From the NCBI RefSeq assembly GCF_026712205.1, contig NZ_JAPPUW010000011.1, forward strand, positions 124,001 through 188,000: DNA of 64,000 nucleotides, read 5' to 3'. Shown here piece by piece: positions 61,182 to 64,000 of this stretch. This stretch comes from Pelomonas aquatica (lineage in GTDB: Bacteria; Pseudomonadota; Gammaproteobacteria; Burkholderiales; Burkholderiaceae_C). Made by a program: the position numbers and the translations under genes. Numbering within the stretch: the stretch's first letter is position 1; each line of letters starts with the position of its first letter. The notes below the pieces were generated by a model. That model worked only from the letters and a program-made list of their open reading frames with translations. It was not told where the DNA came from and did no database searches.

Positions 61182-61454
61182 ATGGCTATCAGCACGAAGC
61201 GCAAGCAGCACGGTCAAGGCATGACCGAATACATCATCATCGTGGCCCTCATCGCCATCGCAGCGATCGCGGTCTATCAGCTCTTCGGCAATACGGTGCG
61301 CAGCCAGACCGCCGCCATCGCGCAGGAGCTTTCCGGCAATGACGGCACCTCGGCCAAGTCCGATGCGCAAGCCGCCAGCAGCAAGGCCGAGTCGGAAGCC
61401 GCGACCAAGCGCAACCTTGACAACTTCACCGGCAATGCTGCCAAGGGCAAGTAA
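61182..61454 (+). CDS. Flp-type (class IVb) prepilin
   Basis: This 90-residue pilin subunit has a short basic leader MAISTKRKQHG, predicted to be cut by prepilin peptidase after G11. The mature sequence then starts QGMTEYIIIVALIAIAAIAV, which puts Glu at +5 and Tyr at +6, the hallmark of Flp/Tad pilins. One hydrophobic helix (YIIIVALIAIAAIAVYQLFG) follows, then a polar Ser/Ala/Lys-rich tail of about 50 residues, longer than in most Flp pilins. A GGAG 8 bases upstream supports the start. It precedes a hairpin pair and an Lnt-TadG frame, consistent with a Tad-type pilus locus that continues past the right edge. Confidence 0.9.
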   Translation: MAISTKRKQHGQGMTEYIIIVALIAIAAIAVYQLFGNTVRSQTAAIAQELSGNDGTSAKSDAQAASSKAESEAATKRNLDNFTGNAAKGK

Positions 61455-61557: not shown

Positions 61558-64000
61558 ATGACGACGCGAGCCAGCGCCGTAGCGGCGTGCTCTGCCCTGC
61601 TCGGCCTGATGCTGGGCATCAGCTTCGGCCAGGACTGGGGCTGGGCGACGGCCCAGGCCGCCCTGGTCGCCCAGCTCGCGCTGCTGCGCCATGTCAACGC
61701 GCAGGGTTTTCGCCCTGCCCGGCTCGCGCTGGCGGGCGCCTGCTTTGCGACCATGATGGCCGCGGCAGGCTATGCCGGCTTCGTTCTCAGCCTTTCAGCC
61801 AGCTACGGCCGCGCCCTGCTGCTCACCGGCCTGCTGCTGATCCCGCTGCACGCGCTGCTGGGTGCCGGCGCGGCCCTGCTGAGCGCCCGGGTCAGCGGCA
61901 ACAGCCTGCTGCGCTGGGCCCTGACCTGGCCTGCGCTCTACGCGCTGCAGGAATGGCTCTTCGGCCAGAGCGACCTCGCCCTGCCCTGGCTACGCCTGGG
62001 CCCGTTGCAGGCCGCCTCCGGCCCGCTGGCCGGCCTGCTGCCGCTGGGCGGCAGCCTGCTGGCCGGCCTCGCCATGGGCTGGTGCGCCGTAGCCCTGCTG
62101 GCTCTGCTGCAGCGCGGCCCCGCAAGGCGCCGCGCCGCCGTGACCCTGCTCGCGTTGTTAAGCCTCTCGGCCCTCGGCCGGCTGGACTGGACACATGCCA
62201 GCGGAGAACTCCAGGCCGCCTTCGTCCAGGCCCCGCCCGGAAGCGAGGCCAGCACCGGCCAAGCCCTGAACACGCTGATGCAGGCCGCGGCGGAATCGCC
62301 GGCCCGGCTTCTGATCACGCCCCAGCTCATGCTGGCCAAGACCGAGCAGGCACTGCCGCCGGGCCTGCTCGACCAGGCTCGCCGGCGCCTTGCCATGCAC
62401 GACGCCGACCTGCTGCTGGGCCTCTATGCCCAGGCACCCGATGGCTTCTACAACAGCGTGCTGGGACTCGGCGCCTCAGGCGACCAGCACTACCTGAAAC
62501 GCCAGCTCTTCCCCATCGGCGAATTCCTGCCGGTGCGGGGGGCGCTGCGCGACTGGTTGCAAGCCTCGCTGCCCATGCGCGCGCAGGACATGGCGCGTGC
62601 CAGTGGCCCCGAGGACCCGCTCTGGCTGGGCGGCCACCGCGTCAGCCTCAACATCTGCTTCGAACTCGCCTTCGCGTCGCTGTGGCGCCAGGAGGCCGCC
62701 GCCAGCGAACTCATCGTCAACCTGTCCAGCGACAGCAGCCACCCCAGCGACAGCCTCGCCCGCCAGGCCCGGCAGCTGGCGCAGGCACGCGCGATGGAGT
62801 TCCAGAAGCCGGTGCTGCGCAGCACTGACGTCGGCCCCGGCCTGGCTGTCGATCATCGGGGCCATGTGCTGGATGTGCCGGCCGGCACGGCGCGCCTGCA
62901 GCCCCGGCAAGGACTGACCCCTTTTGCGATGCTGGGCGACAGCCTCGCCGTCGGCGCTGCGTTGCTCTGCCTGCTGGCGGCGTTGCTCGCCGGCCCCGCC
63001 CGCGAAGACATGCGCGGCAGCACCGCGCTGCGCGTCCTCGGCCGCGGCCGGGTCGCGCAGACCGGGCAGATCCTGATGGCCACCGTGGCACTGCTGCTGG
63101 TCAGCGCGGCGATGCTTTATTTCATGGTCAACAGCGGCCAGGCCGTGACCGAGAAGATGCGCGTGACCAACGCGTCCGATGCCGCCGCCTACAGCGCGGG
63201 CATCGTCGAGGCCCGGGTGCTCAATTACGACGCCTATCTGAACCGGGCCATGGTGGCCAACGAGATTGCCATTGCGCAGATGGTCAGCATTGGCAGCTGG
63301 CTGCGCTACTTTGCCAACGCAGCAGACAACATCGCTGGCACGGCAGGTGACGTCGCCTTGATGTTGGAACCGAGCCTCGAGGCCAGCAAGATCGTCGGCA
63401 TATTTGGCGTCACGGAAGTCGCGCTGCGCTACTACACGCAACGTAGCGCCAACGAATACGCGGACTACGTTCTCCAAGAGCCATACGGGATCATCGGCCC
63501 CTTCATCACGTTGCACGACGCGGTGGCGGCGGCCATGTCCATAGCCCAGGAAGCGGCCCATTCAAATCTGAAATGGGGCATACGCCAGGGGCAGATCGCC
63601 AACCAGGTGGCCAGGGCCATGGATCCAACACTGACTGCACAGGTAGTTCGCGTCCCCGGCCACTTCGACGACTTCGGCGATTTCACGAAGTCCTATGCCA
63701 GGGATGGCGAAACGGGCGACGAGCGCGGCCGCTTCGCGGACGTCACGATGCGCTCACGCGACCTGTTCACCCGTGAGCGCAATTGGACCATCGGCTCCAT
63801 CGACATCCCGCTGGTGCGCCAGAACGGTGCACTCAAGAAGCGCGGTGGCACGGACCTGGTCGGCTACGACGAATGGCGCGGGGTCGACACGCTGGAACTG
63901 CACGGCCAGACCTTCGGCTGCGGCAAATGGCATCTGTCCTGGTGCGACGACATCCAGGAGCCCTTGGGCTGGGGGGCCGTCAACGTCAACACCGGCGATG
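61558..64000 (+). CDS. Lnt-like apolipoprotein N-acyltransferase fused in frame to a TadG-like pilus protein (right end cut)
   Basis: The frame opens at ATG 61558 with an AGGGAG 6 bases upstream and has no stop before the edge, so 814 codons are visible. Residues 1-480 match apolipoprotein N-acyltransferase: about seven membrane helices, the PWLRLGPLQAASGPLAGLLP segment, and a nitrilase-like domain. Its triad is E263 (AKTEQALP), K314 (YLKRQLFPIGEFLP) and C367 (LNICFELAF), close to E. coli Lnt 267/335/387. A last helix ends near 478. From about M485 the frame continues as a TadG-like protein: VAQTGQILMATVALLLV is a signal-anchor helix, then NSGQAVTEKMRVTNASDAAAYSAG, the TadE/G start, and a periplasmic domain. 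TadG proteins assist Tad pilus assembly. No stop or ribosome site separates the halves. Confidence 0.85.
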   Translation, partial: MTTRASAVAACSALLGLMLGISFGQDWGWATAQAALVAQLALLRHVNAQGFRPARLALAGACFATMMAAAGYAGFVLSLSASYGRALLLTGLLLIPLHALLGAGAALLSARVSGNSLLRWALTWPALYALQEWLFGQSDLALPWLRLGPLQAASGPLAGLLPLGGSLLAGLAMGWCAVALLALLQRGPARRRAAVTLLALLSLSALGRLDWTHASGELQAAFVQAPPGSEASTGQALNTLMQAAAESPARLLITPQLMLAKTEQALPPGLLDQARRRLAMHDADLLLGLYAQAPDGFYNSVLGLGASGDQHYLKRQLFPIGEFLPVRGALRDWLQASLPMRAQDMARASGPEDPLWLGGHRVSLNICFELAFASLWRQEAAASELIVNLSSDSSHPSDSLARQARQLAQARAMEFQKPVLRSTDVGPGLAVDHRGHVLDVPAGTARLQPRQGLTPFAMLGDSLAVGAALLCLLAALLAGPAREDMRGSTALRVLGRGRVAQTGQILMATVALLLVSAAMLYFMVNSGQAVTEKMRVTNASDAAAYSAGIVEARVLNYDAYLNRAMVANEIAIAQMVSIGSWLRYFANAADNIAGTAGDVALMLEPSLEASKIVGIFGVTEVALRYYTQRSANEYADYVLQEPYGIIGPFITLHDAVAAAMSIAQEAAHSNLKWGIRQGQIANQVARAMDPTLTAQVVRVPGHFDDFGDFTKSYARDGETGDERGRFADVTMRSRDLFTRERNWTIGSIDIPLVRQNGALKKRGGTDLVGYDEWRGVDTLELHGQTFGCGKWHLSWCDDIQEPLGWGAVNVNTGD

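Follow-up and report, generated by a model that had tools for sequence, protein, structure and literature searches.

An Lnt-type N-acyltransferase fold joined in frame to a TadG-like minor pilin in a Tad locus

The window analysed here, a stretch of 64,000 nucleotides (G000:C3:124001-188000), ends inside a gene whose single open frame reads first as an Lnt fold and then as a TadG-like minor pilin. The question raised by this locus is whether such a protein is real and, if it is, whether its Lnt half still works as an acyltransferase or has taken on some other role next to a pilus protein.

The fused frame and its Tad locus

An earlier note on this DNA had described a frame running from 61558 to the end of the window without a stop. 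This was borne out, and the contig reaches 196712, which allowed the gene to be followed as far as the stop codon at 64459-64461, giving a single frame of 967 codons from 61558 to 64461 of which the last 461 bases fall beyond the window. The features that define the gene and its upstream neighbour are as follows.

61182 to 61454, plus strand: Flp-like major pilin ORF of 90 aa, the first gene of the Tad locus
61558 to 64000, continuing to 64461 outside the window, plus strand: Lnt-TadG fused gene, 967 aa, ATG start
61603 to 62091, plus strand: LNT_N membrane part, residues 16-178 (Pfam, 26.0 bits, just below the cut-off of 27.1)
62215 to 62838, plus strand: CN_hydrolase (nitrilase-like) domain, residues 220-427 (Pfam, 50.3 bits, above the cut-off)
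62944 to 63000, plus strand: final hydrophobic stretch in the Lnt half, residues 463-481 (hydropathy)
63064 to 63198, plus strand: Tad domain PF13400, residues 503-547, where the TadG part begins (Pfam, 24.8 bits, cut-off 22.3)

The domain order LNT_N then CN_hydrolase was thus present in the protein of the window, and LNT_N scored above its cut-off (30.4 bits) when the same protein was met in the genome search. Comparison by phmmer with E. coli Lnt (5vrg) matched residues 48-478 of the fusion with an E value of 1.8e-21, and judged by sequence the fused half holds the whole Lnt fold. The NCBIfam equivalog model for lnt (TIGR00546, cut-off 132.9) gave 134.1 for the protein of the window, a narrow margin, and 145.1 and 159.2 for the two other fusions described below. 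A simple hydropathy scan found six to seven segments in the fused Lnt half, compared with the eight membrane helices of Lnt, and a structure prediction made from four rows had a mean pLDDT of 37.8, too poor for use.

The in-frame fusion of Lnt and TadG in a Tad locus, as claimed in the earlier note, was confirmed by the presence of the same frame in three genomes. A search of 20 genomes with the full protein gave a full-length fused match of 60% identity in a second genome of the same genus (G003), and a search of 399 genomes gave one of 50% identity in another genus of the same family (G267). Both have one uninterrupted frame in the same position after flp. An entry of '1 TGA' within the G003 match was considered as a sign of a broken junction and rejected, as the ORF listing has one frame up to a stop at L056:6922. 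Since two further genomes encode the same uninterrupted frame, an assembly artefact is excluded and the fusion is genuine. By Pfam, both LNT_N and CN_hydrolase were above their cut-offs in the G267 protein; the G003 protein had CN_hydrolase alone, with no LNT_N and no Tad match at E 0.001. All three genomes, the source genome of the window among them, have another lnt elsewhere.

No further fusion was found in five genomes of the genus of G267, in 399 genomes of the order (best few candidates per genome), in 10 genomes and one genome of two other families, in 350 genomes of the class, or in sets of 199 and 215 made up largely of genomes already covered; there is overlap among the samples, and for the large ones the best two to four candidates per genome were scored. 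One query alignment (A2) consisted of the three fusions themselves. A contig scan gave three distant Lnt loci only, and searches of plasmid and phage proteins returned no record covering 80% of the query. The case that the earlier note had set against a fusion, that relatives always encode Lnt and TadG apart, holds for most relatives, but two share the fusion.

The fused gene sits between flp and the remainder of the Tad operon. The Flp pilin that had been placed just upstream is present as the Flp-like ORF at 61182-61454, but its Pfam match to Flp_Fap is weak and under the cut-off (17.9 bits against 32.2); the Flp-like ORFs preceding the other two fusions are 75-77% identical to it. Beyond the window the order is a secreted protein, a TadE-like protein, a conserved hypothetical protein, a short TadE-like protein and CpaB/RcpC, followed by a secretin with SH3_3, a TadA-type ATPase with FHA (T2SSE) and a TadB-type T2SSF protein. 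The labels 'TadE-like' and 'secreted' are our reading of the sequences, and a Pfam scan gave no match in the four ORFs read as secreted, TadE-like or hypothetical. The SH3_3 domain is C-terminal in the secretin (L003:11913-14015) and the FHA domain N-terminal in the ATPase (L003:14026-15741), both genes lying just past the window. In G003 the stretch past tadC (L162:1267-12405) encodes a DUF192 protein, a product whose start is signal-like and which contains a Cys-Gly run, another TadE pseudopilin (PF07811, 38.8 bits) and an RHS-repeat protein of 1662 aa (DUF6531, RHS), together with an Rhs ORF that carries a Tle1-like phospholipase domain (PF09994, 66 bits); the contig of the window stops after tadB, so the comparison ends there.

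The active site of the Lnt half

The residues of the Lnt half that bear on catalysis were placed by alignment, and Gln256 also by phmmer.

62323 to 62325, plus strand: Gln256 (CAG), at the position of the catalytic Glu of Lnt (E. coli E267)
62497 to 62499, plus strand: Lys314, the catalytic Lys (E. coli K335), retained
62656 to 62658, plus strand: Cys367, the catalytic Cys (E. coli C387), retained
62737 to 62739, plus strand: Ser394, at the position of the gate Trp of Lnt (E. coli W415)

The alignment had 43 rows, made up of 39 distinct non-fused Lnt sequences, the three fusions and one duplicate (C_L153 repeats U_G642); the rows were chosen from loci at hand, and a larger, overlapping listing gave the same split between Glu and Gln. 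The Glu of the PET/PES motif, present in 39/39 of the distinct non-fused rows, is Gln in all three fusions, and in the phmmer comparison with E. coli Lnt (5vrg) it is Gln256 that falls opposite the PES Glu. The Glu-Lys-Cys triad is therefore incomplete in every fusion, with the Glu replaced and the Lys and Cys there. The earlier note had read E263, K314 and C367 as the catalytic residues, of which K314 and C367 stand; E263, seven residues beyond the catalytic position, is replaced by Ala in one of the other fusions and by Val in the other.

The gate Trp of the AWFG loop, likewise found in all 39 distinct non-fused rows, is Ser, Ala and Ala in the fusions. Sixteen columns were invariant among the non-fused rows, and the three fusions all keep 12 of these, all lose three (Trp74, Glu256 and Trp394) and are mixed in one. 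Lys314, Glu322, Cys367, Glu369, Tyr312 and Arg411 are retained throughout. The replacements Gln256, Gly74 and Asp424 are identical across the three fusions, the last of them at a position where Asn is 95% conserved in the other Lnt rows. The two Lnt structure papers searched make no mention of E. coli N445, by residue counting the likely counterpart of Asp424. The equivalent of E. coli F416 is missing in the fusions, a loss that was given no weight because several unfused Tad-linked copies also lack it.

The change of Glu267 to Gln has been reported to inactivate E. coli Lnt (Wiktor and others, PMC5500888), and E267A, K335A, E343A, C387A and E389A are listed as inactive (PMC5500890), which makes it very unlikely that the fused Lnt half would perform the canonical Lnt reaction. 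The gate Trp is harder to read: E. coli Lnt W415A is reported to give no rescue, with the protein undetectable (PMC6971011), so that loss of this residue could also point to an unstable fold. The Lys, Cys, Glu322 and Glu369 that are kept could support some residual chemistry.

Lnt genes beside other Tad loci and the origin of the fusion

Seventeen non-fused Tad loci were picked by TadG match from longer match lists, and in six of them an Lnt-like gene adjoins flp, divergently transcribed and about 100 to 300 bases off. The order lnt-flp-tadG on one strand was seen in three genomes (G511, G642 and G753), and in G083 lnt and flp lie on one contig and tadG on another. With the fusions included, an Lnt-like ORF stands beside flp in 15 of the 27 genomes compared, a count that is no frequency because the genomes were non-random and the later ones were partly found through an Lnt match. 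A second place for lnt was listed in 13 of these 15, the rest being G305 (two matches counted) and G511. The divergent type of lnt stood out in five of the 399 genomes of a family sample, at 472-753 bits with the next match at 199; the query (A1) was built from six divergent copies, including those of G255, G029, G305 and G275 among these five, and G083 was the only new one.

The Lnt and TadG trees share the order of several subtrees, namely (G255,(G083,(G029,G305))), (G275,(G016,G001)) and (G511,(G642,G753)). The link between Lnt and Tad is not strict, because two loci without a neighbouring Lnt (G253 and G256) fall near or inside such groups in the TadG tree. All 12 unfused Tad-linked Lnt rows have the active-site Glu, Lys, Glu and Cys. 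The suggestion in the earlier note that the fused protein is the locus's own working acyltransferase was not upheld, given Gln for the general-base Glu in all three fusions and the missing gate Trp; a Tad-dedicated acyltransferase would better fit the unfused, triad-bearing Lnt encoded beside flp.

Prepilin peptidase works on the cytoplasmic side. Since the Lnt active site is described as periplasmic (PMC5500888), acylation of the Flp N terminus by a Tad-linked Lnt was rejected.

Several other features of these loci were recorded. A secreted protein of about 290 aa is encoded between flp and tadG at L062:3876-4766, and an OmpA C-terminal domain was found in it (PF00691, 80.8 bits); ORFs of similar size are found in L063, L064, L070 and L065, the last of these (G253) having no adjoining lnt. 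The divergent lnt of G016 and that of G001 each adjoin a tandem pair of flp ORFs whose ends overlap (L068:11668-12302 and L069:4243-4937). Plasmids with a matching lnt were found in Psychrobacter (7 records), Halomonas (2) and Vibrio (1); four Acinetobacter records of up to 4 Mb also match, and a Moraxella bovis plasmid gave a TadG-like match.

Separate flp, lnt and tadG genes, arranged in that order along one strand, occur in two genomes from other families (G505 and G457), where the stop of lnt overlaps the start of tadG as ATGA. The TadG proteins of these two genomes group as sister to the fused TadG with support of 100/100 (27 rows). A tree of 42 Lnt rows unites the three fusions in a single clade (100/99); its best topology does not place the Lnt of G505 and G457 as sister to them, but the AU test did not reject such a placement (p 0.26). 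Most simply, lnt and tadG would have been joined through a change of frame at such an overlap, and a possible remnant of the separate start lies in the linker.

63010 to 63012, plus strand: in-frame ATG (Met485) that may be left over from a separate tadG start; no ATG in the same stretch of G003

We read the fusion as a Tad-linked Lnt paralogue that was joined to TadG and turned into a remodelled, probably non-acylating membrane module.

The junction and the role of the Lnt half

One further feature of the junction bears on how TadG might be released from the fused protein.

63064 to 63069, plus strand: Gly503-Gln504, a prepilin-peptidase-like site ahead of the TadG helix (comparison of 27 TadG)

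A Gly precedes the hydrophobic helix in 27/27 TadG proteins, and it is followed by Gln in 25 of them, the three fusions included, the others having GA and GH. Unfused TadG proteins have a short, often basic leader before this site, and the fusions have about 480 residues of Lnt fold instead. Both termini of Lnt are reported to be cytoplasmic (PMC5500888) and the junction in the window holds five Arg, in agreement with the earlier view that the topology is compatible where Lnt and TadG join. Because the Lnt part ends in the cytoplasm, the candidate site would face the prepilin peptidase. TadEFG-type minor pilins have been proposed to form the tip of the Tad pilus and to depend on processing by prepilin peptidase (PMC12075869), and TadV is said to be required for Flp, TadE and TadF, with TadG called uncharacterised (PMC12307814). 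We infer that TadG may be cleaved between TG503 and Q504; no Glu5 is present at this site, which is a reason for caution.

The explanation that we favour, and to which we would give an even chance, is that a Tad-linked Lnt paralogue became fused to TadG and that its Lnt half now serves as a non-transacylating membrane module bringing TadG to the machine. Having lost Lnt transacylation, this half would act as a multi-helix membrane module that takes TadG to the inner-membrane pilus machine, and the retained Cys/Lys pocket might still bind lipid or a former partner. Less surely, prepilin peptidase would cut between TG503 and Q504 on the cytoplasmic side, the Lnt half would then amount to an oversized leader, and TadG would be freed by the cut to join the pilus tip. 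A wider proposal, which we put forward only tentatively, is that the Tad pili of several lineages have their own Lnt-type N-acyltransferase, inherited with the locus, and that in one lineage it was joined to the tip minor pilin TadG and became a lipid-binding, non-acylating (or re-wired) membrane leader from which prepilin peptidase would release TadG, an enzyme having thus turned into a pilin's leader peptide.

The fused Lnt half might instead be an active acyltransferase with a rewired site and a Tad-specific substrate, Gln256 and Asp424 representing an exchange of charge rather than a loss. The retention of Lys, Cys, Glu322 and Glu369, the identity of Gln256 and Asp424 in the three fusions, and the complete Glu, Lys, Glu and Cys of the unfused Tad-linked copies are all in keeping with this, and there is a precedent for a dedicated paralogue in AatD, described as acylating a secreted protein at its N-terminal glycine on behalf of the Aat system, its own secretion system (PMC7943197). 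However, the same source gives the four residues of AatD, Glu, Lys, Glu and Cys, as 100% conserved, and the very change seen in the fusions inactivated the E. coli enzyme (PMC5500888), so that we regard continued acylation by the fused protein as unlikely.

Alternatively, the Lnt half could be an inactive passenger that drifts and is kept open only since tadG follows in the same frame. Compared between the window and G003, the Lnt half shows 51% identity, differences of.38/.34/.48 at codon positions 1/2/3 and (NG86) dN.48 and dS.90; the corresponding values for TadG are 70% identity,.23/.17/.41, dN.22 and dS.85. With dS this high, the dN/dS figures are rough. The Lnt half has thus evolved about twice as fast as TadG, which together with the loss of Glu and Trp is what a passenger would give. 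Against this, third codon positions differ most (.48, against.34 at the second), and 12 of the 16 invariant columns are kept in all three fusions although their Lnt halves are 39-51% identical overall; the half is also open in all three divergent copies, with no stops and no frameshifts. On this comparison the Lnt half is constrained, less so than TadG, and not simply decaying, and free drift is in our view an improbable account of it. That there is no fused protein at all, through a sequence error or because TadG is made from an internal start such as the ATG at 63010 or one of the three ATGs in the G267 linker, we consider highly improbable, as the open frame is common to three genomes and the same stretch of G003 holds only GTG, so that conservation of an internal ATG start is lacking.

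Should the unfused, triad-bearing copies prove active, lipid modification would be a part of Tad pilus biology in some lineages, and a substrate could be looked for by comparing loci with and without lnt. The fusion is a direct statement of the link between Lnt and TadG, and it offers a natural case in which an inactivating Glu-to-Gln change is kept while most of the active site remains. It also carries a warning for annotation: the NCBIfam lnt model labels the three triad-lacking fusions as apolipoprotein N-acyltransferase, as it does 5 of the 6 other Tad-linked copies scanned with it, or 6 of 7 if L159, L160, L062, L063, L164, L166 and L069 are all counted, with L069 the one under the cut-off.

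A literature search of open-licence papers found nothing linking Lnt with Tad loci. Both halves of the protein are known folds; neither their fusion nor the loss of the general base that goes with it is described in the open-licence literature searched. The fusion resembles Lnt (E. coli; PDB 5VRG, 5N6H) in its fold, its catalytic Lys and Cys and further active-site residues, and differs from it in having Gln for the catalytic Glu, no gate Trp, an attached TadG and a second lnt in the genome. As with AatD, an extra copy of Lnt is tied to an export locus, and the unfused Tad-linked copies keep the Glu, Lys, Glu and Cys; unlike AatD, the export system is a different one and all three fusions are without the Glu that AatD conserves. 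With TadG the fusion shares the PF13400 start, the helix after (x)GQ and the place behind flp in the Tad operon, whereas about 480 residues of Lnt fold stand where TadG has its short basic leader.
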